From a virus, in IMG/VR virus record IMGVR_UViG_3300011934_000011, positions 1 through 44,248 of that record: a DNA stretch of 44,248 bases. One strand, written 5' to 3'. Each line of letters starts with the position of its first letter. Within the stretch, counting starts at the first letter, position 1. This document shows, piece after piece, positions 4,120 through 25,623 of the stretch. Made by a program: the position numbers and the translations under genes. Below the pieces are notes generated by a model. It was not told the DNA's origin. It searched no databases and saw only the letters and a program-made list of their open reading frames with translations.

Positions 4120-4872
4120 ATGAGCAATATTACTCGAAGCAACAGCGCTGGCTTTGCGCTGCAACCGTCAACGCTTAACGAAGCGTTTGAAATGGCCAAT
4201 ATGTTGTCTGCCAGCCAGATGGTGCCGAAGCACTATCAAGGCAAGCCGCAAGATACGCTGGTCGCCATGATGATGGGGTCTGAGATTGGCCTTAACCCTA
4301 TTCAGGCGCTGCAAAACATTGCGGTGATTAACGGCAAGCCCGCTATCTACGGCGATGCCCTGCTCGCCTTGGTACAAAGCCATTCTGCGTTTGGTGGCCA
4401 TGAAGAGTCTTTTGATGAAGGCACGATGACAGCGACTTGCACCGTGTGGCGCAAGAACGACGCCAGCAAGCATACCGTCACATTTAGCAAAGCCGACGCT
4501 GAGAAAGCCAGTCTATGGGGCAAGCAAGGGCCGTGGCAGAGCTACCCGAAGCGCATGCTAATGTGGCGTGCTCGCGGATACGCCCTGCGTGACAAGTTTG
4601 CGGATGCCCTAGGTGGCTTAATTACCGTTGAGGAAGCCCGCGACATTCCCGAAGAGCGCGAAATCAACCCGGCGCCACGCGAGGCAGAGCCCCAAGCGCT
4701 GCCTTACTACCCTGCCGACGACTTCGACGCCAACTTCCCAAAATGGGAGGCGGTTATTCAGTCCGGCAAGAAAACGCCTGATCAGATTATTGCAATGGTC
4801 AGCAGTAAGGGTGAACTCACCAGCGAACAGAAGGCCGCCATTTATGACGTGGCGAATCAGGAGGTTGCATGA
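4120..4872 (+). CDS. recT: RecT-like single-strand annealing protein
   Basis: A 250-residue RecT-family recombinase, which anneals complementary single strands at recombination or replication ends. The family signature is the segment with MVPKHYQGKPQDTLVAMMMGSEIGLNPIQALQNIAVINGKPAIYGDALLALV in the N-terminal half, then WGKQGPWQSYPKRMLMWRARGYALRDKFADALGGL. I chose ATG 4120, with AGGAG seven bases upstream. An ATGA-coupled ATG at 4042 would add 26 atypical residues encoded over a hairpin. The stop overlaps the exonuclease start (ATGA), so the two are co-translated, as expected for a RecE/RecT or Red-type pair. The C-terminal 60 residues are variable and acidic. Confidence 0.85.
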   Translation: MSNITRSNSAGFALQPSTLNEAFEMANMLSASQMVPKHYQGKPQDTLVAMMMGSEIGLNPIQALQNIAVINGKPAIYGDALLALVQSHSAFGGHEESFDEGTMTATCTVWRKNDASKHTVTFSKADAEKASLWGKQGPWQSYPKRMLMWRARGYALRDKFADALGGLITVEEARDIPEEREINPAPREAEPQALPYYPADDFDANFPKWEAVIQSGKKTPDQIIAMVSSKGELTSEQKAAIYDVANQEVA

Positions 4873-6461
4873 TCATCCATGACGTAGTTCAAGGCACAGC
4901 CGAATGGGGCGCCCTGCGCGCTTCATGTTTCACCGCTTCAGAGGCCCCGGCAATGACCGGGGTTAGCAAGTACCAGTCACGCTCAGACCTGCTCAAGCAG
5001 AAATATACCGGCGAAGTGCCAGAGGTAACGCCAGCACAGCAGCGCATCTTTGATAAGGGTCATGCAGCCGAAGCCAAAGCCCGCCCGATTGCCGAGCGCA
5101 TCATTGGCGAAGAGTTGTACCCCTGCACCGCTACCAGTGACGACCACTCTTGGATGCTGGCCAGCTTCGACGGCTGCACCATGCTTGAGGATGTGATCTG
5201 GGAGCACAAGCTGATTAACGACGAGCTGCGCACTGCCACTGTTGAAACGCTGCCCGAGCATTACAAAGTTCAGATGGATCAGCAGCTGCTTGTCAGCGGT
5301 GCTGATAAGTGTCTGTTCATGGCAAGCGACGGCACCGAAGATGATTGCAACTGGTTTTGGTACGAAACCACGCGGGAGCGCATCGATTCATTGCTCGCAG
5401 GCTGGCAGCAATTCACAGCCGACCTGGAAGCCTATCAGCCCCAGGTGCAAAAAGTAGCGCCCCAGGGTAAAGCGCCAGATCAGCTGCCAGTGCTAAACAT
5501 CCAGATGACCGGCGGTGTGCAGGCGTCGAACCTGCCTGACTTCAAAGCGCAAGCCTTGGCCATGATTGACGGCATCAAGACGACATTAACTACGGATAAG
5601 GAGTTTGCCGACGCCGAATCCACAGTTAAGTGGCTGCAGAAGGGTGAAAAGCAGCTTGAGCAGAGCAAGCAGCAGGCGCTTGAGCAGACAGCCAGCATTG
5701 CGGAGCTGTTCAGCACAATAGACGAGTTACGGGAGACGATGCGGCAGAAGCGGCTGCACCTGAATAAGCTGGTGACGGCAGAGAAGAATAGTCGGCGGAT
5801 TGATATTCAGAATAAGGCCAGCATGGAGTACGACGCTTGGCTGGATGCGCTGGATTGCCCTATCCGTCTGGCGTCGGTGCTGGACTTGCCCACTGCAATG
5901 AAGAACAAACGCACCATAAGCAGCCTGCAAGCCGCTGCTGACGACGAGTTAGCGCGAGCCAAGGTAGAGGGTCAACAAGAAGCCGAACGCCTAAAGGGAA
6001 ACAAAGCGTTACTGGAAAGCGAACAGGGTGAATATGCCTTCCTGTTGAGCGACTGGAAGCAGCTGATCTGCCAGGACGCTGAATACATCAAGCGTGAAGC
6101 TGGGCGCCGTATTGCTCAGCACAAGGAAGCCGAGGAAAAGCGGCTGGAAGCTGAGCGTGAGCGCATCCGGCAGGAGGAAGAAGCCAAGGCCAAGCGTGAA
6201 GCGGAAGCGCAGCGGCAGCGTGAAGCCGCCGCTGCTGAGGCTAAACGCCAAGCCGAGGAAGCAGCTCGCAAACCCAAGCCGGAACCAGAGCAGTTACCCG
6301 CAGCAGCGCAGGCAATTCAGGCGGAAGAAGAATTGCTGGCAGAGGCGAGGTTGCAGCGAGCCAGTCAATTTGAGCATGTGGAATTGGTAACGATTACCCG
6401 CAAAGAGTACGACAGGCTACTTGCGGCCGAGGCCAAGTTAGCAGCGCTGGAAGCAGCATAA
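4869..6461 (+). CDS. YqaJ/lambda-type 5'-3' exonuclease with a coiled-coil tail
   Basis: A 530-residue protein. Residues 1-200 are a YqaJ viral recombinase domain of the PD-(D/E)XK fold: the entry motif GTAEWGALRASCFTASEA, Glu68, Asp101 in ASFDG, Glu112-x-Lys114 in WEHK, and the VQMDQQLLVSG helix. It should resect double-strand ends to feed the RecT partner encoded just upstream. Residues 240-400 are helical. Residues 410-470 are a long charged coiled coil (EEKRLEAERERIRQEEEAKAK...), then a Pro/Glu linker and a short helical end. The fusion of an exonuclease domain to a long helical tail makes it twice the length of lambda Exo. A UUCG-capped terminator follows. Confidence 0.9.
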   Translation: MIIHDVVQGTAEWGALRASCFTASEAPAMTGVSKYQSRSDLLKQKYTGEVPEVTPAQQRIFDKGHAAEAKARPIAERIIGEELYPCTATSDDHSWMLASFDGCTMLEDVIWEHKLINDELRTATVETLPEHYKVQMDQQLLVSGADKCLFMASDGTEDDCNWFWYETTRERIDSLLAGWQQFTADLEAYQPQVQKVAPQGKAPDQLPVLNIQMTGGVQASNLPDFKAQALAMIDGIKTTLTTDKEFADAESTVKWLQKGEKQLEQSKQQALEQTASIAELFSTIDELRETMRQKRLHLNKLVTAEKNSRRIDIQNKASMEYDAWLDALDCPIRLASVLDLPTAMKNKRTISSLQAAADDELARAKVEGQQEAERLKGNKALLESEQGEYAFLLSDWKQLICQDAEYIKREAGRRIAQHKEAEEKRLEAERERIRQEEEAKAKREAEAQRQREAAAAEAKRQAEEAARKPKPEPEQLPAAAQAIQAEEELLAEARLQRASQFEHVELVTITRKEYDRLLAAEAKLAALEAA

Positions 6462-11302: not shown

Positions 11303-11533
11303 ATGGATATGACATTTGAAGATTTCACAGCGGCATTGATCGGCTTTGCCTTCCTCGGCTTTATGGTCACATTCATGTGTCCATGGGGTCGGGTAATGAC
11401 GTGGACCGACTGGGCGCTGATTAGTTTTGTCGCCATGCCGTTGGGATTGGTGGTCATTGCGGTTTTGGTGGCCGTCCCTGGCCTGTTCATCGGTCTGGTG
11501 TTTCTGCTCGGCATCCTTGCTGCTCAGCGCTAG
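11303..11533 (+). CDS. Small membrane protein, 76 residues
   Basis: A 76-residue hydrophobic protein with a TM segment near residues 8-27 and a long hydrophobic stretch at 37-72 (ALISFVAMPLGLVVIAVLVAVPGLFIGLVFLLGI), enough for two more passes or one long hairpin. The ribosome binding site is weak. Its stop and that of the giant gene share CTAG at 11530-11533 head to head. In a prophage such genes can be lysogenic-conversion or superinfection-exclusion proteins; this is inference. Confidence 0.6.
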   Translation: MDMTFEDFTAALIGFAFLGFMVTFMCPWGRVMTWTDWALISFVAMPLGLVVIAVLVAVPGLFIGLVFLLGILAAQR

Positions 11534-14500
11534 TTGACTCGCGCCTGCTCGATGCGCTTGCCAGCGACGCGCTGTAGCTGGTTGCGGATAGTGCGCAGCC
11601 GGTCGATGCGCTGACGCTTCACCTCTGGCGGCATATCCGAGCGGCGGATGATTTCCTCCTGACTCTTGAGCGTGCGCAGACGTGATTGCGTGCGGTTAAG
11701 CGCCTTGCGTATGGCCAGCATGGAGCGCTGATCCTGCTGCGTCTCCATGGCTTCCTCAAGGCGGCCAAGCTCGCGCAACTCCTTGACATCTGAGTATGCC
11801 CGCTGTGCTTCTCGCAAGCCTTCGTAGAACACCGTACCGTACCGCGTGTACTTATCCTCAAGCCCAAGATTGGTATAGAAGCGGCGGATAGGCTGGCGTT
11901 CGTAGATTTTTTGCGCCGGGTTGGTTTTGCCTTGTGACCATTGCCAGGCGCCGTCACCTATACCCGCCACCCAAGCACCAACCTGCCCGAAATAGCCTTG
12001 AATCAAGTGATCTACTTGCACTGGTGACAATGCGAGCGGGTTATCCTCTGACTTGCCGATAGCGCCCACGGTTGAGTTCAGTAGTTTGCTTATACCTGTA
12101 GCGGGCGCCGTGGTGCTGCCGCGCCTACGCAGTTCAGGTGAAAGCCTATCCATACCCATGCTTTCAATCGGCCGGCCGGTGAAGTCATCCCGGTTAGCGT
12201 AGATATTGTAAGCGGGCTGCACTGCCTGGGGGACCGCTGTAAAGCTGAAAGTATCGGTCATCATGTGGCCCATACGCTGAGCGAACAGCTTGCCAGTCGC
12301 TTCATCATCAGCAAACTGCTCAGTCACCCGTTCGGCAATCGTAGCAATCGCCCCCACTTCAAACGGTTTCGGGATTGAAATAGCCGCGTCACCGATACGG
12401 AACCACCAGTAGGTATCTCGGTGCCACTGTTCCAGCTTCTCGTATTCCTCGTCGTCCTTGTTATGCAGGTATAGCGCAATCGTGGCCAATGTCACGGCGC
12501 CGGTGACTGCCCAGAACCGTCCAGCCGCTTGCTTGTCGGTTACGCCCGCCTGCCCCTGCCCGAACGCTTCCATCATTACGTTACCGGTTGGCTTGAAGCC
12601 TGAGCGGTAAATCTTGTCCAGACCTTGAATGCGGGCGTTAAGGAATGGCACCACGTCGATCAGGATGCGCACAGCGGGCCATGCGCCACGGGCTGAGAAG
12701 TCGATCAAGTCGCGTGACTCGAAGGCGCTATACAGCTTGCTCCGGCCTGCATCCATGTTCTGCTGGTAGATGGCGGCACGGTTGACGTTCTCCGTGAAGT
12801 TGTTGAAGTCCATCCACTTGTTCCACACATAGCGAATATCAAACAGCTTGCTAGGCCGGTCGATCAGTCGGGCGCCCTGCATGGTCTTGGTTAGCTGCTC
12901 TCGTATCTCAGCGGGGCTGCCATCAAAGACGTGACCGAAGTTGAACGCACCACCGGATGCCATCATGCGGGCGCGGGTCTTTTGGTCCTTGTAAGAGCGC
13001 GTACCCTGCAGCACGTTTTTCAAGGCGTTTTTGCTTACGTCGCTGGTGGCTGTGGCCTGTACTGCGTCACGAATCAAGTTAGCCAACTGGAATTGCGGGG
13101 TGCTGGTGGTCAAGTTAGTGAACATGCGCTTGAACTTGCGCAGTACCCGCATGAGCGTGCTGTTCATGCCGGGGTGTGCCAGTGCGGTTACAGCACTGAA
13201 TACCATCGGGTCGTTGACTTCGTAATGCACCTGCTGGCCATCGCGCATGATGAACGTCTTTTGCTTTGACTTGGTATCAGCGGGCACCTGTTCGGCAATG
13301 CCCAGTTCCAGCGCGTTATCCATCGCCTGTGTGGCCGCCTGATTTTTCAGGCTGGCATCCAGCAGGTGGTGGAAGTTCATCATGGTGTTTTGCAACAGGT
13401 CGTTGACGTTCTCGGTGCCACCTTTCAGGCGCTTGTACGCTTGCTGGCGTGACAGGCCCTGTGTGGCAGGCATAATGCTGTTCTCGGTGCTTTCTTCCTT
13501 GAGGCGGTAGAACGGTACATAGAACTCGTCCTTCCAGAGGTCGCGCTGACTGGTCATGTAGTCTTGCATCTGCGCATCAATAACGGTCTGGTCGCCTTCC
13601 TTAGCCGCGGCGGCGTCGATAATGTCACTAATGGCGGCGCCAAGGCGTTGATCGGCAGCATCCTGACGCAAGGGGTCGCCCTCCTGCTCGGCGGCCTGCT
13701 TGGCTTGGCGCAGGTTGTCTTTCAGCGTTTGTTGCAGGTTGTACTGCTTGGCCAGAGCAAAGGCGGCACCGACTTCATCCATGGCCGGTTTCAGTAGGCC
13801 GGACTGCTCAGCAATGGCCAGCACGTCATCACGGTATTGCTGGAACTCGTTAAACGCCTCTTGATAAACCTCGGCGCGGTTGCGGCCATCGGGTAACGTG
13901 CCGCGGTCCCAGTCTTTCATCCGGTCGATGTCGTCATCCGTGAACAGGTTTTCTCTGCCTTGACTGCGCAGCTTGTCCGCACGGTTGCCAGCAATCCAGC
14001 CCATGAAGCGCTGCACTTCGGCACCGCCTTTCTTCGGGTCGTCCAGGTTGCCCAGTTTGGCAAAGACGCTGGCAAGCCCGGTGCTGCCGTCGTCCTTAAC
14101 GTCAATCACCTTGTCCTGCGCATCCAGGTACACGCGGCCATTGTTGAGCATGGCACCCAGGGCACCGTTGGCCGCATTGCTCAGGCGCGCCAGTATCCAG
14201 CTACGCTGTGCAATGTTGTCGTCGGTGACTTCCTTGCCAAAGCGTGCGTTATCCATTTCATTGAGTGCCGCGACCTGGTCCACCATGCCTTGACGCAACC
14301 GCAGCCCCAAGCCGGTGGTCATCTCACGCCACTTATCCATGATGGTTTGGCGGCGAGTACGCGGGCCGATTTTGCTGGCGGCCTCCGCGTCCTCTGCGGT
14401 CATGTCGTCAAAGTTAGCGGTAAAGTCTGACGGCGTACCTGAGCGCAGGCTGTAGCGAATGTCGGGGTTTTCGGTATCTCCTTCAAAGAAATCATCTAGA

Positions 14501-17500
14501 TTTCCCGCATACTGTATTTGAGACTCGCTATTTGGCGTCTCGTACAGGACAAGCCCATCCGGTGTTCTTACACCGTCAATATTATTAGGCTCAAACACCT
14601 CGCTCCACATCACTTCCATTAGATATTCATTATCGAACCCGTCTGCCGAATCAACAATGTCGTCTGGAGACAGCATTTCAACTATATCGTCAGCGGTTAT
14701 TGACTCTTGGTTTAGTTCTTTGGCAATACCGATTAGCATATCGGTATTAGCTTTTGCAGCTTCATTTATCAGATCAGTTAGCTGATCGCTGTTAACGATG
14801 ATCCCGTAATCACCGTTAGTCACCCATACGTTGCCCCCATACGATTCCAAAGAGTCGGCTGCGGTTTGTGCATCAGGGGTATCTGAATTAACGCCGACCT
14901 CCTTAAACATTGCATACCCAGCCCTAGAAAATGGCGATTTGTTTTTGTTTGTTAGGCGGATATAGCGAGCTTCTGTGGGTTTAACGCTAACCGAACCGGT
15001 TGTTTCAGTGCTCTTACCGGAAAATGCGTAGCGAGCGCCAGTTTTGCCATCTTGCTCTGCCTGCTTGCCACGCAGGTATGTCCGGCTCTGCTCACCCAAG
15101 GCCAGCACATCGGTATAGCTCCACTCCACTGTGGGGAACAACTGACGCAGGGCTGCGCGAATCTTGGCAACTAGGCGCTGCCACGTCTTAGGCCGGTGGC
15201 CTTTCTCTAGCAGGTGAGCGACCATTTCCTCGGCAATGGCGATACGGTCTTCACGCTTTGCCGGGTCAAGGAACGGGTACGCTTTGCGCACTTCGTTCAG
15301 CGCTTCGCGGCCTTGTTTGCTGTTGGGTAGGCTGCGGTATAGCGCAAGCATGGTGGTGTCGAGGGCGTTACCCAGCACGCCACGGATGCCCTTATGGCCT
15401 ACGGCTTCGTGCAAGGCTGCGCGGATACCGTCTTGTGCGTCACTGACGTTATCGGCAATAACGTAGATTTCGCCTTTGTGGTAAACGCCGCGAGCATCTT
15501 GAGGGTTGACGCCATTGCGAGCCATATCTTCCAGCACAGCATCAGGCAGGTCTTGGGCGCGCTGCAAGACATTGACGTTGCCAAGTTCAGGGTAGTCGTT
15601 GATCGCCATTTGTATAGCAATAGACGCGCTACCTTGCGGCTCTGTCTTGGATGCCAGTGAATAGCGCGGCTCGCTCTTGCTGGCTTCGGCATCAAAGGAG
15701 TTAACAGCTTCTGGCGCGGGATCACCGCCTGCTTTCTCCCAGTTGCCACGCTGTGACGGTAAGGTATAAAGCGGCCCTATCTCACTGACGGCAGCAATAA
15801 CAGCGTCTAGCTGGCTGTCAGTAAAGCGGGCCATCATGGTGCCGCCTTTTGCAAAGAAGTCGCCACCCAAGGCGCTGCGCAGACGGTTGCTGAACTTGAG
15901 CGACTTAGCGAGCGTTTCCTTGTTTGACTTGGGCACACTCATAACCCATCCGCCACTGCTTTCTGGCTGGATGCGGCCAACACTGTTCTCAGTGAATACG
16001 CCACCCACCTCTTTCAGGCTGTCGCGGTATTCGCGCATGTAGCGAGACGCCGCCTCAAGGTTGCGCATTGCTACGTTCTGCTCAGCATCCAGACCGGAAA
16101 AGGTTTTGTCGTCAAAGTTCTTAGGCATCAGCATGCCCAGGTGGGTTTGCCCATCCTTGTCCGTAAAGGCGGTAATGCGGCCTTTGTGCTTGCCTGACGC
16201 AGCTGCAATCAGGTTACCGGTCGCTACATAGCGTATCTCGCGCATGTTGGTTTCAGCGGTAGCACTGAAGATCGTGCCAAGCCCCTGTTTGCCGGACGAC
16301 TGCAACACCTCAATCAGTGCGCCATCACTATCAGATTGCAGGCGGGTTAGCGGCAACTCAATCGTTCTCACGCCGCTATTCACCATGAACCGCACTCTGG
16401 TCTTGGATAGTGCGTAGGGATTGCCCTTGCCTTCCTTATGGGTGCTGGTAAGCCCGACGACGACGCCTGTTACCTTTTCCTCTTTCAGGTCCAGGCGCAC
16501 GCGATTGCCGATAGCAAACGACTTGCCAATCATTCGCTCAACAGCGGCCTTACTTCTTTCGTATTCGCCCGGCCTTTTCTCATTGCGGTCAAGGTAGTCT
16601 TCGCGCGCATCCACCAACTTGGTAGCTTTTTCACCTAACACCTTGCCAATCTCACGCGGGTCGGTGAGGTTTAACCCTTCCTTTTTCGCCTTGGCGCGAA
16701 GCGCTGCCTCAATATCGCTAATAGAGTTTTCAATAGACTGCATTTCTTCTTGCAGCCAGTTATCTGATTCCAGCTTACTGAGGATTTTGCTGCCCTTTTC
16801 AGGGTCGGCTTTATCCAGTGTTTTCTCAACCTCGCCTGACGTTGGCGGTGTGCCCTGATACTTGCCGTCCACCTTGTGCATGTAGGTGTGACCACCAAAG
16901 ATGGTGTCAGGCGCCTTGCCTTGATACGTCACTTTGGTATCAATGATCTTGGCGTCAAGGTCCACGGTGGCGGGTTCAAGGTCGTTCTGGCCGGTCTTGT
17001 TCAGGTAGTCGATATACTGGCGGTATTCGCGCTCAATCGCCTCGTAGGCTTCGCGTTGAGCCTTTACGGGTTGCGCAGCTAGACGCCCGGTAAACCTTAA
17101 AGCAACACCGGGGTCGCCGTTGCCAGCGCTGGAATTAACCCCGGTAGCTGCTGACATACGGGGGTTTTCTTTCAGGTACTCGTTGACGATGTAATCGCCA
17201 TACTTGTTCAGTATATCCAACGCCTCAACGCTGGTATTGGATTCCGTATTGGAGCTGGTGTTGGCATTCAGCGACTTCATTTTCTTGGCGGTGTTTGCCA
17301 AGGGGCGAATCTCGGCCGGGATCGCCAAGCCCATCATGGTGTAAGACGGCTTGTTGACCTGTCCGGTGCGGTTGACGCGGCCAAGCATCTGCATCAGCAC
17401 GTTAATATCTGCCGGTGCCTGCATCATAATCATGTGGCGCGGCTTCTGATCGCTGAAACGCTCGCCCGCATGGATAGACAGGCCGGTAGAGCCTGACTTG

Positions 17501-20500
17501 TTCAGGATGATGGCATTTAGGCGGCCAGCATTGAAGTTGTCTACGGTGCCGCGTGCGTTCTTCCTTTCCTCTGCGTCACGGCGTGACAGTATCGGCGTAC
17601 CTCCTGAGTAGTCGATCATGTAGTCACGGCCAGTCAGTTCGGCAACACTAATGTCTGCCTGAACCAGCTTGTTGCGTACATGGTCGATGGGTGAGATAGG
17701 CAAGTCGCCCAGATCAAGGTTGCGGATAACCTCGGCGGCCTCTTGATAAGCCTCGCGTACAACGGGGTCTGTGTCCGATAGCGCCACGCTTTTAGTGACT
17801 TTCTCTCCATTGGGTAGCGTTTCGGTGTAACGGCGCGTACGGTCAAGGGCGCGCATCAGCACGTCTTGGTAGTTGGCATCTACCGTATCGCCTAGTTCCA
17901 AGCCAAAATCTTTGACATACTCATTCAGGAATGAGCCCATCGTGTTTTCAAGCGCCAATACAGGCTTTACGCCTTGACTGTGAAGCTCGATAGCTTGGTC
18001 AGCGGCGCGGTCCGCTTTAAGTCCAAGCAGTAGCTGAGAGATGTAGTTGTGCAGCACGCTGGTAAAGTTCTGGTGATCTAGCCCTTTACCCGCTTTGTTG
18101 CCTGCGCCTTGTGCGCTACCGCCTTGCTCTTCGGCATCGGCTTGCAATGCGCCCACAGTCAAATCGTGGAATAACTTGTCAGCCTTGGTGATGGCGCGCA
18201 GGCCTTCCGAGACTTGATCGGATAGCTTTTCGTGCAGTGCTTTATTACCGTCATCAATCGACGTTTTGATCTCGATACCTTCAAAGCTGCGCTCACGACG
18301 GAATAACTGCCCGCTGCGTGAAAGCATGTTGGAGACGACGGTTTGCAGGGGTGTGCCGCCTGTCTCTACCGCTTCAACCAGACTGTCTACGCTATCAACC
18401 GCGTCCGCTACGTCGGTGCGGTAATAGATCGGCATATTGTCTGGGCGCTTGGCGTATGTCGCTGACAGGTAGACAACAGGGTTATTTTCGATCAGGTCGT
18501 AAACAAAGCCGGCGCCCGTTATCTTCTCGACGTTCTGGCCTTTTACCTTGGCAAACTTCTTACGCTCCCCGGCAACCTCGTGAGCCTCGTCCAGCACAAA
18601 GATGGCATCTTTTGCTACCGCTTGCATAACGCGACGCTGTAGGTTGTCGGTGTTGATCTGCGAGTAGGTGAGGAATAGGGCGTCATAGCCTTCCGGCAGT
18701 CGTCCGCTCGCGGCCATGTCTTGAAGGATAGTTGTCTGCTTTTTACCCTTAGCGCTGCGGGATACTTCCTGCTCCTTCCAGCTAATCGCTACATCCTTGT
18801 TGACCACAAACGGCTTTACGTCGTGGTCGCCAATGTCGCGCAAGTCACCGTACATATCAGAAAACAGATTGTCTTTCACGGTCATAAAGACCGGCGTTTT
18901 ACCTACTTCACGCGCATAGCGGATAACAGCGGCAGCCTGACGCCCCTTGCCCAAACCGGTCTGATCGGCAATGATAACGCCCTTGCCACGCTCGATATTG
19001 CGGATTGACGCGGCAACGGCATCCACTTGAAGCCCCATAAAGGCACGGTTCATATCTTCAAGAGTGGCGTAGTTCAGTTTGTTTTTGACGTATTCATCAA
19101 TGTTGCCGACCTCGTTTTCAAGGTCGGTGAGTGCGTCCTGGGTGGGTTGTGCCATGCTGTTGGGGATCAGCACGGCATCATTAAAGCCTGCGCTTCTGGC
19201 TCGGTAGGCGGTCTGGAATTGTGATCCGCTTAGGGCTGTGCTTCCTGTAGCGCTGCCACCCACGTTTCCAGCGTTTGTTCCGCCAGCATTTCCTTGGCTT
19301 CCGGGTCTTGTGTCGGCTTGATTGCTGGGTACGACTCCATCATCCAGCTGATTTCGTCCACCATCTGCATTGCTTCGGCCATTTCCTGTGGAGACGTTAG
19401 CCCTTGGCTGGCTATTGCGTCCCCCAGTCCGGGTGCTCGCTCCAGAATCATTCGTGCGCTGCCCTCCCCGGCTTCCTCGTCCTCCGCGAGTGCCAGTTGA
19501 TACACCTTGTTGATTAGAAAGTTCATCAGCAGGGGTGCGTCCATCTGGGATTGGGTCGGGCTGACGGCTACCATCAACACTTCCTGAACGGGGGATGGCT
19601 CGTTGGGCGGCATCCAGACTGCGCTCATATTGTTCATACACTTGCTCCCATGTGTCGGCGCGCTCAATCGTGCCGGTCTTGGGGCTGATTTTATCAGACT
19701 TGACGCGGCCATTGACGGTAATCATCCGTACCGGCCAGCCTGCACCCTGGCGCTTATACAAGTCACCGTTTACTTCAAAGTGACCTACCACGTTGTAGTG
19801 GCTGTAAAGCCAGTTAAAGAACGTGCGGTCTGCTGCGCCTATCTCACCGGCTTCTTTGCTGGCACCTATAATGATAGTAGCTCGGCCATCATCTTCCAGT
19901 GCTGATAGCGCTTTGGCGGCAATCAGGTGGTCGATAGAGCTGATCTTGAAACCGTCCATTTGACGCGGCGCAAGGCGACCATCAGCATTGCGCAGTTTGC
20001 CGAATGGCGGGTTGGTAGATAGCGCGTCTACCCGCTCCTTGGGTATCCAGTCGGTTGCGTCGTACTGCGTGACGTTAAAGCCCTGATCCTTGAGGTGGGC
20101 AGCGCGACGATCATCAAGCTCGTTGACGATAGCGTTACGGGTGTCAGCACCTATAATCAGCATGCCGTTACCGGCAGTAGGCTCATAAACCCGCGTGCTT
20201 TCGTTGATTCCGGCAAGGCGCGAACCAAGGAATGCCATAGGTGCTGGCGTGCTGTACGCCTGCCTTTCCATGCTGGTCGAGCTGCGAACATCAAGGTTCG
20301 GCTGGTTTTCGTACAGCGTTAGCAGTTTGTCGTACACCTGCTTATCAGTGCCACCCTCGGCCACAATAGAGCGGGCACGACGTACCAGGGCAAGTTCGAA
20401 AGACTCTTGCGCTTCCTTCAGCAAGCCGTTGTGAACATCCGCTACCTTAATGCTGTTATATTCAGCAATCGCGCTTTTCAGCTTACGGTTGTCGGTAATG

Positions 20501-23500
20501 CTGTCGATCTGCTGATAGAGCGCATCAGCCAGAGTGCCCGGCTTACCGGTGATCGGCTCTATGGTTTCGGTGACTTCACCCTGTGGCGCGGTGTCTTGCT
20601 CAATGCTCGCCAGATCATTCATGGCTTCACGCACGGTATCGGGTGAATCCATGTCTGTTACATCGAGGCCGTTATCTTCCATCAGGTCGCGGCCACCGTT
20701 GTACCAGCTGCGCAGATAGGGGCGCAGTTCGGTAACGCTGGTGCCAAGGTCCTCGGCCATGGCTCGGGCAAACTGGCTAAACTTTCGCGCACCCGCCTCC
20801 ATGTGGAAGGCGGCCAGTTCAGCACCCAGGCTGAGCATTTCAGGGTCGAAACCGCTGTTTAGCTGGCCTAGTTTGGCGCGTAGACGGGCGCGCAATTCCT
20901 CGGCGCGGTCCTTGGATACCAGCGTGTTATCATTTCCCCAGCCTTCTTGCTTTTTGGCCTTGGTGGCTTCCTCATCTTTCTTGCGCACCTTGAAGCGTGG
21001 GCGGCGATTGTCTGCGCTGGCGGTGACACCTTGGCGTGTTGGCGTGATAGAAACGGTTTCAAAGATTCTGACGCCATCCTCCACCACAAAGCGAATACCG
21101 TTCTCATCTTCATAAACGGTTTCATTACCGACGTTTTTACCGACTTCCTTGGGCTGCTTGGCTTTTGGCTTTGGCTTATCGGCTTTAGGCTTTTTGGCTT
21201 TGCGGCTTTTCGCCTTAGCATCAAGATTAGACTTAGCGACGTTGGCAGCAAGCTCAACGTCATCGTTAAGCGCGTCGTAGGTGTCGGGGTCTTGCAGCTG
21301 CGCACGATATAGCTCAGTGACTTTCCCCTTGGCCTCGGAATCGCTACTTTCGCCCAGCACGGCGATTTCGTTCATGCGGTCGATAGCACGGTCGCGGGCA
21401 GTCTCCTTGGTGGTTTCACGCTGGCTTTCTGCATCATTCTGCACGCTTTCTGCATTCTGCGTAACGCTGTTATAAGCTGCTTCGATCTCGCTGAAGCCAA
21501 GCTCATCAACCCTGTTTAGCAATGTGTTTCTTTCTGCTTTGCGCGGTACGGCCTTGCCTGCGTTGCGTAGCATTTGCTTTAACTGGTTATCGCTAAGCCC
21601 TTTTAGTGCCGCATAGCGGTCTGCAATTATTGGGTTTGAGTCAGGTTCTCTGTTATCGCTAAATGTTGGGTTTGGGCCGCTGCCAAAACCTTGCTTCATG
21701 TCGTTGTTAGCAGTTGCTGCTGCTTCAGCAACTACTTCAAGCGCCGCTCCGTCATCTTCGCTTATGCGGGATAAAGCGCGGGCTACATCAGATTGCGGCG
21801 CGCCATACTCGATTGCGTCACGTATCGCACTACTTGCCCAAGTTGGAGCGTTTTCTTGAAGCTCGTTGATAGCCTGTTCGCGCTCTTCAATGCTGGCGTA
21901 AGGGTTTTGTGTGGATTGCCCTGAGGCGGCAGTATCAGGCTGCGCCCCAAGCAAGTCGTTCTGCCCCTGCGCGGCGGCAAGGTCAGCGCTGCTGTTACTG
22001 CCGGCAAGGGTGAAGTCGTCTACCTCGGCGTCTGCTTGGGCGCGCTGCTCTTCATCGCGTATGCGGGCTTGCTCGGCGGCTTCGGCTTCCTGCTGCTGGC
22101 GGTCACGGTCGGCAAGCTCGGCCTCGGTGTAGCTGTTGAGTAGCGGTTCTACTTCTGCGGTAGTTGCAGACCCTTGGGTAAGTTCAGTTTCTCCCCCTTG
22201 GGTAAGCGCTTGTTCGTCTCGTTGAGTGATTCCTGAAACATCGGCTTCAGGCGAGCGTTGTCCTTGCACCTGATCTTGATTTTGGAAGCTGGCATCGAAA
22301 ATATCCTCATTGGTTGTTGTATCTTCAAACAGGGCGCCGTTGACTTCACTTTCAGCGCGATTGCGAACGCTGCGTGCCACGTCGGTCAGCGCATTGGTCA
22401 TCGCCTGACGGCTGCGCATGCTGTTGTTGATGGCCAGCGCTAGATCAGCGGTGGATTCCGGGATTGCATCGCTAAAGGCATCTGTCTGGCGTACCAATTC
22501 ACGAACGCTTGTACCGCTTCGGCGTGACTCACGTACCAAGCGCACGGCATCGGTAATAGTGTTGATGGCGTCTTGCGCGTCACGGCTACCTGTTTCCCGG
22601 GCGGCGGCAATGTCGGGTGCTGCTGCCTGAAGCCCTGCGGTCAGGTTACGCATGTTATCGGACTGCTCCGTGACCATTTCCACCATATCGGCGTCCTGGT
22701 ACGCGGCAGCAAAGATAGCGCGCTGCATCCGCTGGCCAAGCTCCGGCGTTGCTTGCCCTTCTCGATTAGTGTAGCGGCTGGCTTCGTTATTGCCCAGGCT
22801 GCGCACAAAATTACGCTGGAAGTCGCGGTTACTGGCCGCCAATGGGTCGCCGCTTTGATCCGGCGCCCATGCTTGAATATCCTGCGCTGTCAGGCTATCT
22901 GCGTCAGCTTGCGCCTGTTCGTAGCTGGTCATGCCTGCAACACTGCTTTCATTGGCACGGCGGGCAAAGTCGGCACGGTCTACGCTGGTGGTTCGTTCGC
23001 GCACCAGTACCGGCTGCTGCATCTCATCCACGGCGGTTGGGTCAATACCCTGTCGTTCGGCCTCGCTGCGCACGTACTCGCGGTAGCGCTGTGCTTGCGG
23101 GCTGTTCTGGCTGTAGGCGGTGCTGATTGCCATGGTGCGGCCATTACCAGACTCCACCACGCCATCATTACCGACAATGGGTGCGCCGGTGCTGGCGTCG
23201 GTGCTTGGGCCAAGGCGCTCCGGGTTTAGGCGGCTGGTAATGTTGCGCACCTGCACTTGGCTGTTGGCGTTGGTGCGGTCGCGGGGCTGTAGTTCTTGCG
23301 GGTAACGGGGATTAACGCGCCCATCCTGTGTATTGGATGGCGTTAGCTCGCTGGCTTCCATGACGCGGAATCGGGTCTTGATCGGCGTATTGTCGGGCAG
23401 GTAGGTAGTTTCACTCTTGCCGCGTGTGCGTGCCGTCTGAGCGGAAGCCTTGGCCTGTGTCTGTTGCTGGGCGCGACGACTCTCTACGGCACCACGGGCG

Positions 23501-25623
23501 CCGGTATCGGTGAAGCGAGCATTGGGGAAGGATTGGTCTAGCCCGGTATTAGCGTTACCAGCGGTCGGGCCATCGCCGTAAATTGTGCCGTCTTGGCCGA
23601 TACGGCGGGCGCTGTCTTGGCGTAACCGGTCAGGCTGGCGGTTTAGTTCACCGTCGAAGGTGTCGCCTTGGCGGTTGGCTTGACCGGGCAGTGGGTCACG
23701 GCCAACGTATTCGCCATCAAGGCCGGTATTCTGTGCTGTGCCGAATTGGCGCTCAAAGGCTGCGCGGCGGGCTTCTTGCTCTGCGTCAAAGTCGCGGGTC
23801 GGGCCATCACCATAGATAACATCATCGCGGTCAATGCGACGACGGTTAAGAATATCGTCCTGTTCCTGCCGCGCACGTTGGCGAGCATCAAACTGTGCGG
23901 GCGACTCACCTGCAATGCTGTCACCAGTGCCGGGTGGTAGTTGGCCACGGCGGCCTTCAAGTCGCGGCGTCGGGCCCTGATCTTCTTCACGGCCTACAAA
24001 ATCACCTTCGGCGGGGCGTTCACGGGTGCCAGCGGTGCGCAAGGCAGTGCGTAGATTATTGCCGATACGCTCAGCCTGTGCCATCAGGCGGCTGGCTTGC
24101 TCGATGTTGCCGTTCTCAAGGGCTGCTTCGGCGCGTTCGGTAATCTTCGCCATGTTGCGCAGGCGGGCAGTGCCTTCAAAACTAGCACCACGGGCAATGG
24201 TTTGCAGGTCGTCAACGTCCTGTAAGCCGCGCTGGATACGCAGACCGACATCACCGGCCTGTTGCTGACGCCCTGCTTGTGCCAGCGGGTCTTGCTCTGC
24301 TGACTGGCGACGGCTTTCAGATTCCTGTTCGGCAGCTTGTGCGGCGCGTGTCTGGTCGAGCGGATCACCACCTTCAGCCTCAGTTCTGCGGCGAGCTTCG
24401 GCGGCGGCTGCTGCGGTATCTTCCTCCGGTGGCGTTTGGTCACGGCGTGGGCGTCCAGCCAGTGCGCCAGTACCACCACCCATGACGCTACCAATCAAGC
24501 CTTCAGACAGGCCGGCAGCGGCCACCCCTTCCATCGGGTTGCGGTCAGGGTCTACACCAATGTCAGCGATTGCAGTGTTGGTGGCATACTTGCCTGTACC
24601 GCCTTGCCCGGTTTCGACAACGCCTTGCACGACGGCTTGCTGAGCGGCTGCGCCTAAACGCCCGCGCCCAGCGCCGGTGCCTTTGGTTACAATGTCGTCA
24701 AGCGCCTTGCCGCCATAACCACCCAGCACGGCATTGGTCAGCAATAGCGCTGGGTCACGCATGACGAGGCTCTTGGCGCCTTCGGCCATTTCTTCCCGGG
24801 CAGCCTGACGCAATTCGCTAACGCTGGTGTCTGGGTTCTCACCCGCCAGCTTCCAGTAAAGCTCTTGATAAGCGACCGACTGATCCAGTTCTTCATTGGG
24901 CATGCCCATAACTTCAAGGCGCGCACCATCAGCAATCTGGCCAGTATTGACCGCCATTTCAGTGGCGCCATACGTGCCCAGCATGACGCCGTTGGCTGTG
25001 CTTGATTTCAGGAAGTCATCGGTTGCTTTGACGGCGGCGGCACGTTGACCTGCTTCATCCAGCCCCTGCTTGACTGCGTTGCGCTTTGCTTGCCCACCAA
25101 TGATGCGACCTGTCAGGCTTAAAGCCGCCCTTGAGCCACCGCCCGCAATACCACCAGACGTTACCGCCTCACCTGCTAGGCTCGCTGTTTGCAGGGCAAT
25201 AGTGCGAAGGTTGAAGCCTTCACCCATCTTGAAGTCAGTCAGCCCTGAGCCGGTGCTTTCAAAGATCGGTTGACGGATAGCCTTGGCAGATTCTGGCGTC
25301 ATGGTTTCAAGCTGACGCGCTGCACCCTCGCGGCCAAAGTTGCCCAAACCACGACCGTAGCCGGTAAACTCGTAAGCGAAGTCACCCAAACCTTGCGCGA
25401 CGTTATAAGCACCCTGTTGCCCGGCGTCTACCAGGTCGCCAAGCATGCCGCTATTGCGGTCGGGGTCGCTGCTAGTGTCGGGGGTGCCGTAAACCTGAGC
25501 GTTAAAGTCCTGCTCGGAAAGCTGTTGAAACTCTGGTTTTCTGCGCAACGATTGAGCAATCTCTTGATCGCTGTAGTTTTTCAGGTTGGGGTTTTTCTGG
25601 CGAAGTTCGTCAATAATGCTCAT
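11530..25623 (-). CDS. Giant polyvalent virion protein (ParB-like, N6-MTase, helicase, zincin, LPD38-like)
   Basis: A 4697-residue protein, one third of the window. In order: Gly/Ala-rich hydrophobic helices (55-400); low-complexity linkers with repeated YGDGPT; a ddrB-type ParB-like domain near 750-1000 (SNTQDGRVNPRYP, VVESGNGRTMAI); an N6-adenine methylase near 1700-1960 (VYEPTAGNGML; STNPPFG near 1872); a Gly/Asn linker; a Strawberry-notch-type SF2 helicase near 2130-2800 (TGLGKG ~2224, LDEAHE ~2346, GRVNRTGQ ~2749); a zincin with HEAVGH at ~3407; an AT-rich module at 3530-3722; and a C-terminal LPD38-like region from about 4150. Polyvalent proteins of this type, such as P1 DarB, are packaged and injected to shield DNA from restriction. 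Being last in the ejection-protein cluster fits. The SD sits in a GNRA hairpin. Confidence 0.92.
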   Translation of the reverse strand: MSIIDELRQKNPNLKNYSDQEIAQSLRRKPEFQQLSEQDFNAQVYGTPDTSSDPDRNSGMLGDLVDAGQQGAYNVAQGLGDFAYEFTGYGRGLGNFGREGAARQLETMTPESAKAIRQPIFESTGSGLTDFKMGEGFNLRTIALQTASLAGEAVTSGGIAGGGSRAALSLTGRIIGGQAKRNAVKQGLDEAGQRAAAVKATDDFLKSSTANGVMLGTYGATEMAVNTGQIADGARLEVMGMPNEELDQSVAYQELYWKLAGENPDTSVSELRQAAREEMAEGAKSLVMRDPALLLTNAVLGGYGGKALDDIVTKGTGAGRGRLGAAAQQAVVQGVVETGQGGTGKYATNTAIADIGVDPDRNPMEGVAAAGLSEGLIGSVMGGGTGALAGRPRRDQTPPEEDTAAAAAEARRRTEAEGGDPLDQTRAAQAAEQESESRRQSAEQDPLAQAGRQQQAGDVGLRIQRGLQDVDDLQTIARGASFEGTARLRNMAKITERAEAALENGNIEQASRLMAQAERIGNNLRTALRTAGTRERPAEGDFVGREEDQGPTPRLEGRRGQLPPGTGDSIAGESPAQFDARQRARQEQDDILNRRRIDRDDVIYGDGPTRDFDAEQEARRAAFERQFGTAQNTGLDGEYVGRDPLPGQANRQGDTFDGELNRQPDRLRQDSARRIGQDGTIYGDGPTAGNANTGLDQSFPNARFTDTGARGAVESRRAQQQTQAKASAQTARTRGKSETTYLPDNTPIKTRFRVMEASELTPSNTQDGRVNPRYPQELQPRDRTNANSQVQVRNITSRLNPERLGPSTDASTGAPIVGNDGVVESGNGRTMAISTAYSQNSPQAQRYREYVRSEAERQGIDPTAVDEMQQPVLVRERTTSVDRADFARRANESSVAGMTSYEQAQADADSLTAQDIQAWAPDQSGDPLAASNRDFQRNFVRSLGNNEASRYTNREGQATPELGQRMQRAIFAAAYQDADMVEMVTEQSDNMRNLTAGLQAAAPDIAAARETGSRDAQDAINTITDAVRLVRESRRSGTSVRELVRQTDAFSDAIPESTADLALAINNSMRSRQAMTNALTDVARSVRNRAESEVNGALFEDTTTNEDIFDASFQNQDQVQGQRSPEADVSGITQRDEQALTQGGETELTQGSATTAEVEPLLNSYTEAELADRDRQQQEAEAAEQARIRDEEQRAQADAEVDDFTLAGSNSSADLAAAQGQNDLLGAQPDTAASGQSTQNPYASIEEREQAINELQENAPTWASSAIRDAIEYGAPQSDVARALSRISEDDGAALEVVAEAAATANNDMKQGFGSGPNPTFSDNREPDSNPIIADRYAALKGLSDNQLKQMLRNAGKAVPRKAERNTLLNRVDELGFSEIEAAYNSVTQNAESVQNDAESQRETTKETARDRAIDRMNEIAVLGESSDSEAKGKVTELYRAQLQDPDTYDALNDDVELAANVAKSNLDAKAKSRKAKKPKADKPKPKAKQPKEVGKNVGNETVYEDENGIRFVVEDGVRIFETVSITPTRQGVTASADNRRPRFKVRKKDEEATKAKKQEGWGNDNTLVSKDRAEELRARLRAKLGQLNSGFDPEMLSLGAELAAFHMEAGARKFSQFARAMAEDLGTSVTELRPYLRSWYNGGRDLMEDNGLDVTDMDSPDTVREAMNDLASIEQDTAPQGEVTETIEPITGKPGTLADALYQQIDSITDNRKLKSAIAEYNSIKVADVHNGLLKEAQESFELALVRRARSIVAEGGTDKQVYDKLLTLYENQPNLDVRSSTSMERQAYSTPAPMAFLGSRLAGINESTRVYEPTAGNGMLIIGADTRNAIVNELDDRRAAHLKDQGFNVTQYDATDWIPKERVDALSTNPPFGKLRNADGRLAPRQMDGFKISSIDHLIAAKALSALEDDGRATIIIGASKEAGEIGAADRTFFNWLYSHYNVVGHFEVNGDLYKRQGAGWPVRMITVNGRVKSDKISPKTGTIERADTWEQVYEQYERSLDAAQRAIPRSGSVDGSRQPDPIPDGRTPADELSNQQGVSTGTRGGRGSRGGQRTNDSGASTRTGGRNSQPRANVSTGNGRSNADGGRNQLDDGVVPSNQADTRPGSQGNAGGTNAGNVGGSATGSTALSGSQFQTAYRARSAGFNDAVLIPNSMAQPTQDALTDLENEVGNIDEYVKNKLNYATLEDMNRAFMGLQVDAVAASIRNIERGKGVIIADQTGLGKGRQAAAVIRYAREVGKTPVFMTVKDNLFSDMYGDLRDIGDHDVKPFVVNKDVAISWKEQEVSRSAKGKKQTTILQDMAASGRLPEGYDALFLTYSQINTDNLQRRVMQAVAKDAIFVLDEAHEVAGERKKFAKVKGQNVEKITGAGFVYDLIENNPVVYLSATYAKRPDNMPIYYRTDVADAVDSVDSLVEAVETGGTPLQTVVSNMLSRSGQLFRRERSFEGIEIKTSIDDGNKALHEKLSDQVSEGLRAITKADKLFHDLTVGALQADAEEQGGSAQGAGNKAGKGLDHQNFTSVLHNYISQLLLGLKADRAADQAIELHSQGVKPVLALENTMGSFLNEYVKDFGLELGDTVDANYQDVLMRALDRTRRYTETLPNGEKVTKSVALSDTDPVVREAYQEAAEVIRNLDLGDLPISPIDHVRNKLVQADISVAELTGRDYMIDYSGGTPILSRRDAEERKNARGTVDNFNAGRLNAIILNKSGSTGLSIHAGERFSDQKPRHMIMMQAPADINVLMQMLGRVNRTGQVNKPSYTMMGLAIPAEIRPLANTAKKMKSLNANTSSNTESNTSVEALDILNKYGDYIVNEYLKENPRMSAATGVNSSAGNGDPGVALRFTGRLAAQPVKAQREAYEAIEREYRQYIDYLNKTGQNDLEPATVDLDAKIIDTKVTYQGKAPDTIFGGHTYMHKVDGKYQGTPPTSGEVEKTLDKADPEKGSKILSKLESDNWLQEEMQSIENSISDIEAALRAKAKKEGLNLTDPREIGKVLGEKATKLVDAREDYLDRNEKRPGEYERSKAAVERMIGKSFAIGNRVRLDLKEEKVTGVVVGLTSTHKEGKGNPYALSKTRVRFMVNSGVRTIELPLTRLQSDSDGALIEVLQSSGKQGLGTIFSATAETNMREIRYVATGNLIAAASGKHKGRITAFTDKDGQTHLGMLMPKNFDDKTFSGLDAEQNVAMRNLEAASRYMREYRDSLKEVGGVFTENSVGRIQPESSGGWVMSVPKSNKETLAKSLKFSNRLRSALGGDFFAKGGTMMARFTDSQLDAVIAAVSEIGPLYTLPSQRGNWEKAGGDPAPEAVNSFDAEASKSEPRYSLASKTEPQGSASIAIQMAINDYPELGNVNVLQRAQDLPDAVLEDMARNGVNPQDARGVYHKGEIYVIADNVSDAQDGIRAALHEAVGHKGIRGVLGNALDTTMLALYRSLPNSKQGREALNEVRKAYPFLDPAKREDRIAIAEEMVAHLLEKGHRPKTWQRLVAKIRAALRQLFPTVEWSYTDVLALGEQSRTYLRGKQAEQDGKTGARYAFSGKSTETTGSVSVKPTEARYIRLTNKNKSPFSRAGYAMFKEVGVNSDTPDAQTAADSLESYGGNVWVTNGDYGIIVNSDQLTDLINEAAKANTDMLIGIAKELNQESITADDIVEMLSPDDIVDSADGFDNEYLMEVMWSEVFEPNNIDGVRTPDGLVLYETPNSESQIQYAGNLDDFFEGDTENPDIRYSLRSGTPSDFTANFDDMTAEDAEAASKIGPRTRRQTIMDKWREMTTGLGLRLRQGMVDQVAALNEMDNARFGKEVTDDNIAQRSWILARLSNAANGALGAMLNNGRVYLDAQDKVIDVKDDGSTGLASVFAKLGNLDDPKKGGAEVQRFMGWIAGNRADKLRSQGRENLFTDDDIDRMKDWDRGTLPDGRNRAEVYQEAFNEFQQYRDDVLAIAEQSGLLKPAMDEVGAAFALAKQYNLQQTLKDNLRQAKQAAEQEGDPLRQDAADQRLGAAISDIIDAAAAKEGDQTVIDAQMQDYMTSQRDLWKDEFYVPFYRLKEESTENSIMPATQGLSRQQAYKRLKGGTENVNDLLQNTMMNFHHLLDASLKNQAATQAMDNALELGIAEQVPADTKSKQKTFIMRDGQQVHYEVNDPMVFSAVTALAHPGMNSTLMRVLRKFKRMFTNLTTSTPQFQLANLIRDAVQATATSDVSKNALKNVLQGTRSYKDQKTRARMMASGGAFNFGHVFDGSPAEIREQLTKTMQGARLIDRPSKLFDIRYVWNKWMDFNNFTENVNRAAIYQQNMDAGRSKLYSAFESRDLIDFSARGAWPAVRILIDVVPFLNARIQGLDKIYRSGFKPTGNVMMEAFGQGQAGVTDKQAAGRFWAVTGAVTLATIALYLHNKDDEEYEKLEQWHRDTYWWFRIGDAAISIPKPFEVGAIATIAERVTEQFADDEATGKLFAQRMGHMMTDTFSFTAVPQAVQPAYNIYANRDDFTGRPIESMGMDRLSPELRRRGSTTAPATGISKLLNSTVGAIGKSEDNPLALSPVQVDHLIQGYFGQVGAWVAGIGDGAWQWSQGKTNPAQKIYERQPIRRFYTNLGLEDKYTRYGTVFYEGLREAQRAYSDVKELRELGRLEEAMETQQDQRSMLAIRKALNRTQSRLRTLKSQEEIIRRSDMPPEVKRQRIDRLRTIRNQLQRVAGKRIEQARVN
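14440..15030 (-). other. AT-rich module inserted in the giant gene
   Basis: Residues about 3530-3722 of the giant protein are encoded by DNA clearly richer in A+T than the rest of the gene. The module runs from after GARYAFSG to NPDIRYSLR and is acidic, with GVRTPDGLVLYETPNSESQIQYAG near its end. That ending resembles the closing strands of ADP-ribosyltransferase-like polyvalent domains, but the match is by eye. The composition step and the RYS-type borders suggest recent acquisition as a domain cassette. Confidence 0.5.
19230..19637 (-). CDS. Overprinted gene inside the giant gene's linker
   Basis: A second reading frame on the same strand as the giant gene encodes 135 residues from ATG 19637, with GGGAG seven bases upstream. 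The product is acidic and Met-rich with amphipathic helices (LLMNFLINKVYQLALAEDEEAG, ARMILERAPGLGDAIASQGL, PQEMAEAMQMVDEISWMMES, LAEQTLETWVAALQEAQ). In the giant frame the same DNA gives a low-complexity Gly/Asn/Arg/Ser linker between methylase and helicase, as expected if the embedded frame is the constrained one. Other alternate-frame ORFs in this gene look like random sequence. Function unknown; the acidity allows a DNA-mimic or chaperone idea, as guesswork. Confidence 0.5.
   Translation of the reverse strand: MNNMSAVWMPPNEPSPVQEVLMVAVSPTQSQMDAPLLMNFLINKVYQLALAEDEEAGEGSARMILERAPGLGDAIASQGLTSPQEMAEAMQMVDEISWMMESYPAIKPTQDPEAKEMLAEQTLETWVAALQEAQP

Follow-up and report, generated by a model that had tools for sequence, protein, structure and literature searches.

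The window analysed here, a virus record of 44,248 bases, raises the question of whether one stretch of DNA inside a giant gene codes for two proteins. Its virion genes (major head protein, portal/head-tail adaptor, amidase and tail fibre) are podovirus-like. The giant gene is of the polyvalent kind: a methylase, recognised by alignment with relatives, is fused to an SNF2-type helicase plus polyvalent-associated domains. Between the methylase and the strawberry-notch-type helicase the giant frame reads as a linker rich in Gly, Asn, Arg and Ser, as the preliminary description had stated, and at this place a second open reading frame (ORF) lies in the +1 frame of the same strand. A RecE-like recombination exonuclease gene is also present at 4869-6461 on the plus strand, opposite to that of the giant gene (PHROG 7655, E 7e-173). 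The features of the region are the following:

11530..25623, minus strand: giant polyvalent protein gene, 4697 aa (ORF with Pfam matches ddrB-ParB, AAA_34, Helicase_C_4 and LPD38)
19669..20343, minus strand: adenine methylase domain of the giant frame, with NPPF motif (alignment with relatives)
19219..19668, minus strand: linker of the giant frame that holds the embedded gene; its sequence is unconstrained in relatives and it is kept open
17074..19218, minus strand: strawberry-notch-type helicase region of the giant frame
19230..19637, minus strand: embedded gene, 135 aa (135 codons plus TAA), in the +1 frame relative to the giant gene
19645..19649, minus strand: Shine-Dalgarno sequence GGGAG, 7 nucleotides before the embedded ATG
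19722..19724, minus strand: first in-frame stop met upstream of the embedded gene, 28 codons from its ATG

The preliminary description had credited the embedded ORF with its own Shine-Dalgarno (SD) sequence and with an acidic product, and both are borne out: GGGAG stands 7 nucleotides before the ATG, and the predicted protein holds 21 Asp/Glu against 5 Lys/Arg, with a pI of 4.05. The pI is below 5 in 77 of 95 members of the family (median 4.57), and the mean excess of acidic residues is about 8. A longer product of 160 aa could be initiated at an in-frame ATG at 19712; the start at 19637 is favoured because homologues show the motif W8-x-P10 downstream of it. In the window (19630-19660) and in many close relatives, a giant-frame motif, W-x-x-(V/L)-Y, exactly overlies the embedded SD sequence and start codon, and its conservation may therefore reflect both frames.

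The open length of the embedded frame in the window gave p = 0.010 when the codons of the giant gene were shuffled synonymously. Over 99 loci the median p was 0.068, with p<0.05 in 41 of the 99 for the +1 frame and in 3% for the +2 frame. By itself, open length is modest evidence for the window and weak evidence per locus; the real evidence is conservation. One +2 frame was long: the L112 linker contains an open stretch of 104 codons in this frame, which exceeds all 1000 synonymous shuffles. Fourteen ORFs that lie in alternative frames within the giant gene or overlap it were tested, namely the embedded ORF and 13 more with a length of 100 aa or above. Among those on the giant strand, the embedded ORF alone is conserved over its whole length and free of stops in the closest relatives. 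The five other ORFs of at least 100 aa on the same strand were not conserved. Several antisense ORFs that face conserved parts of the giant frame, for example 19603-19905 on the plus strand, look conserved by tblastn, mostly with stops. Such conservation is a shadow of the constraint on the giant frame and a warning for searches of this type.

Based on tblastn searches with the embedded ORF, the homologous linker was matched at full length in the three closest relatives (L009, L010 and L011) with 38-42% identity and E values from 1e-12 to 5e-18, the 42% match having E 5e-18. The preliminary description had counted frequent stops in relatives as evidence against a gene; the +1 frame was found uninterrupted in them. 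More distant loci were collected through the flanking methylase and helicase. Among 172 non-redundant loci with a methylase-helicase pair (a count that leaves out 31 loci where this pair is missing), a +1 ORF that fits in size and position, called by open length plus an ATG and not by homology, was present in 140: 139 automatically, and L080, which has a GTG start, by hand. The other 32 loci comprise 29 from Bacteroidota, two plasmids (L004, L006) and one Acinetobacter phage (L007); the linkers of the 29 Bacteroidota loci mostly measure 207-300 nt. The ORF is present in 103 of the 110 rows of a helicase tree built with FastTree, and the 7 rows that lack it group together; therefore one change suffices, whether gain or loss. 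Three of the 31 loci without a pair (L048, L053 and L066) are viral helicases to which no methylase is fused; the sequence upstream of these three showed no +1 ORF resembling the family.

Among the carriers are virus contigs and genome records of Cyanobacteriota, Pseudomonadota, Thermodesulfobacteriota, Myxococcota, Nitrospirota and Moraniibacteriota. In Picosynechococcus PCC 7002 the host gene, on plasmid pAQ6 (NC_010480.1), is about 6 kb long and encodes a much smaller methylase-helicase protein; the +1 ORF there has 168 codons (complement 100507..101013). The feature common to all carriers examined is the methylase-helicase fusion and not the virion. The five named records with a +1 ORF (L002, L003, L005, L008 and L251) list no CDS for it, the gene tables of the plasmids being incomplete. 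In a Leptolyngbya locus (L204) the linker contains a frame break, with two stops in the giant frame, so that the embedded frame continues into the helicase; it is either a decayed copy or an assembly error.

Several profile comparisons indicate that much of this collection is one family. Trp8 and Pro10 are nearly invariant among 71 aligned members. An HMM built from 27 close members matched 53 of 72 other loci at E<=10, and 51 of these 53 outscored all of their own synonymous shuffles (20 per locus); the remaining 19 of the 72 gave no match at this threshold. Profile-profile comparison joined the window group to a second phage group (E 5.9e-9) and to a cyanobacterial group (E 2e-10), and these last two to each other (E 2.4e-9), while a shorter type of 17 rows was weakly linked to the family (E 5e-4, probability 32). 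As judged from these matches, homology covers part of the ORFs and is not shown for each of them. When viral contigs were scanned with the embedded-protein profile of the second group alone, 35 loci were found. In every one of them the match is in the +1 frame relative to an open methylase-helicase frame, and 36-39 nt separate it from the helicase match that follows.

Homologues encoded as separate genes, which the preliminary description had envisaged, were not found. No stand-alone copy was seen in this profile scan of viral contigs, where all 35 loci are embedded, and tblastn gave no matches with the window ORF and L104 against phages or with L162 against phages and plasmids, a weak search for stand-alone homologues that also missed the plasmids L003, L008 and L251, which hold a +1 ORF. 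Single-protein scans of viral sequences returned nothing for the window ORF or its helicase, and L104 matched itself alone. Searches of PHROGs, Pfam and PADLOC (71 members each) and of NCBIfam (13 members) gave isolated single-member matches or none, and the best E value of the profile against PDB sequences was 0.033. A kinship with portal proteins (PHROG 537) was discarded, as it came from the window member alone (1 of 71 members, E 0.0083). The embedded protein apparently matches no known family in PHROGs, Pfam, PADLOC or NCBIfam.

The frame under selection was identified from substitutions between loci. In 21 disjoint pairs the +1 frame showed a dN/dS of 0.41 (0.35-0.48), with the signal in 21/21, and the giant frame across the same ORF 1.14 (1.02-1.27), the reverse of its flanks, where the giant frame has 0.20 in the helicase and 0.22 in the methylase. 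Counted on giant codon positions 1/2/3, substitutions in these pairs amounted to 915/543/450 over the ORF versus 1034/682/3021 over the helicase. A frame-neutral alignment gave nearly the same values (0.42 for the +1 frame, 1.12 for the giant frame), as did the 14 pairs of equal length (0.40 and 1.13). Replicate loci obtained with a different query gave 0.43 (0.34-0.49) in the +1 frame, in 11/11 pairs, and 1.00 (0.70-1.26) in the giant frame. Pairs with the window itself are diverged and their codon-position signal is weak (+1 positions 55/53/77 and 55/56/64). The claim that the embedded frame is the constrained one is upheld by these values, and its constraint far exceeds what the giant frame explains; the giant-frame sequence in the overlap shows no purifying selection (dN/dS 1.14 and 1.00).

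The giant frame is nevertheless kept free of stops. It is open in 134 of 134 loci, a set that leaves out L204 with its broken giant frame, versus 25.9 expected if only the +1 protein and codon usage were preserved. Eleven loci had been dropped before this count and the SD counts below (L172, L182, L192, L194, L195, L197, L004, L006, L007, L151 and L204); on inspection the ORF is present in L172, L182, L192 and L194. Selection in the +1 frame together with the openness of the giant frame means that the region codes twice, for a folded acidic protein in the +1 frame and for a linker that needs only to stay open. The suggestion that the linker serves as spacer and gene at once agrees with this result.

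The start signal was evaluated by taking as start the nearest ATG upstream of the W-x-P motif, chosen blind to the SD sequence, with 2354 ATGs of the same frame in the helicase region as controls. An SD match of at least 4 bases precedes 62.5% of 96 starts versus 18.6% of the control ATGs, and one of at least 6 bases 25% versus 0.6%. Both the SD sequence and the ATG are conserved at homologous starts. In many divergent relatives AAGGAG is found 7 nt before the ATG, the starts there having been picked partly by SD.

AlphaFold models were obtained for the window protein (46 rows; mean pLDDT 92.1, pTM 0.85) and for a member of the second group (13 rows; mean pLDDT 92.6, pTM 0.87). Both present the same order of elements: a strand, a short helix, a strand and a series of helices. 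Foldseek gave no match at E<=0.001 against PDB for either model (best E 3.7 and 2.1) or against BFVD for the window model (best E 2.3), and VIA-align gave a best Z of 2.3 for one model and none for the other. The lack of a fold match in PDB and BFVD would not in itself prove a new fold. Likewise, no DNA-mimic fold of the Ocr/ArdA type was matched by Foldseek at E<=0.001 in PDB or BFVD, and absence from these lists is no proof against it.

Could the +1 frame be open merely through the base composition of a low-complexity linker, with no gene at all? Its open length is often compatible with this (the median p of 0.068 over 99 loci), but frame-specific selection, deep homology, the SD signal and confident folds contradict it; a chance ORF was rejected by the shuffles, by the HMM matches and by selection in both sets of pairs, and we regard it as scarcely credible. 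Alternatively, ribosomes might reach the +1 frame solely by a programmed frameshift out of the methylase, which would then acquire an alternative C-terminal domain; the position of the ORF directly behind the methylase in the +1 frame speaks for this. However, strong SD motifs precede the ATG, and in 94 of the 134 loci an in-frame stop precedes the start by no more than 10 codons, in 19 directly. These close stops argue against a frameshift from the methylase, and such an extension, very improbable in our judgement, was rejected. The embedded ORF is almost certainly a real protein-coding gene. Its conservation, the selection on the +1 frame, the openness of the giant frame, the SD signal and the confident fold are computed results, and we infer that the ORF is translated.

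What the product does is less clear-cut, and the partner for anti-restriction or chaperoning that the preliminary description had suggested is a conjecture. It might act alone against host defence, for instance as an acidic decoy that blocks restriction, and be merely carried in an anti-restriction gene. The low pI of most members would suit such a decoy, and the host gene is of the methylase-helicase type that passages of PMC5512222 link to anti-restriction. Nonetheless, the members share no PADLOC family, no stand-alone copy was found in the profile scan of viral contigs, and an independent protein need not stay tied to one linker. Moreover, the mean acidic excess of about 8 is far below that of Ocr, and we consider a decoy unlikely. 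The product could instead be a chaperone that helps the giant protein to fold or to be loaded, for example for its packaging and ejection with phage DNA. It would be made from the same mRNA as the 4697-aa protein, next to virion genes, and small acidic helical proteins are commonly chaperones. The carriers, however, include cyanobacterial plasmids and genomes with a much smaller methylase-helicase protein (as in the PCC 7002 CDS of about 6 kb), and therefore packaging cannot be the shared role; this reading seems to us distinctly unlikely. A dedicated partner of the methylase-helicase module, either a small subunit or a regulator, is the most likely role because the ORF is found only with the methylase-helicase, in virus contigs, plasmids and bacterial genomes alike. 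Since these carriers share the fusion and not the virion, it is also the simplest role, and we give it an even chance.

The explanation that we prefer as a whole, to which we assign a probability of roughly 0.55, is that of a real nested +1 gene with its own start and a folded product that is a partner of the methylase-helicase. Ribosomes would most likely start at the internal SD sequence and ATG on the giant mRNA. The product, a folded, acidic and mostly helical protein of about 135 residues, would arise next to the giant chain still under synthesis, at about the point where the methylase part is complete and the helicase part comes next. The giant frame would read the overlap as a disordered linker, free in sequence and barred only from stops.

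Some known systems resemble this arrangement in part. According to passages of PMC12915044, comS is nested within srfAB of Bacillus subtilis in a distinct reading frame; there too, a small distinct-frame gene lies in a very large multidomain bacterial gene and the two are separable by point changes. Unlike the embedded gene, which recurs across many phyla, comS is known in a single regulatory circuit and links unrelated functions. Here, moreover, the host frame is the unconstrained one in the overlap, and the proteins of the two systems are likened by arrangement only. Viruses offer other overprinted genes, such as B in A and E in D of phiX174 and Rz1 in Rz of lambda, which likewise draw two proteins from one same-strand stretch of DNA. 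In viral overprinting it is usually the protein of the newer frame that is less constrained or disordered, whereas here the nested frame encodes the folded, constrained protein and the host frame the linker, and the pair also exists outside viruses.

The giant gene itself resembles the polyvalent proteins with a methylase-helicase dyad whose archetype, in the account given in parts of PMC5512222, is DarB of phage P1: a methylase is joined to a helicase of the SNF2 or strawberry-notch type, and ddrB-ParB and LPD38 are present as well. A nested gene is not mentioned in those parts of PMC5512222 that describe the dyad. In P1 darB (L250, record 15297-14764) a +1 stretch of 177 codons is open before the helicase; it has no good SD sequence and no family features, was rejected as a homologue, and is probably due to chance.

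Our search of the open-access literature returned no report of a nested gene in a methylase-helicase linker. Prokaryotes have very few long same-strand nested genes whose conservation extends across phyla, and such genes are suppressed by annotation programs. The present case is unusual in its reversed constraint, in the depth of its conservation and in a confident fold that remains unmatched. The chances seem to us balanced that it represents a family with no recognised fold relative, nested almost only in methylase-helicase genes, old across viruses and several bacterial phyla and missed by annotation, which would supply a dedicated subunit synthesised in concert with the host protein, while the host frame is a passenger kept open. 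As a case backed by clear measurements, it pairs a nested frame that encodes a folded protein under selection with a host frame that supplies just a linker. It also points to a component of a widespread module of the anti-restriction type that has been overlooked, and suggests that the linkers of giant mobile-element genes should be searched for hidden genes.
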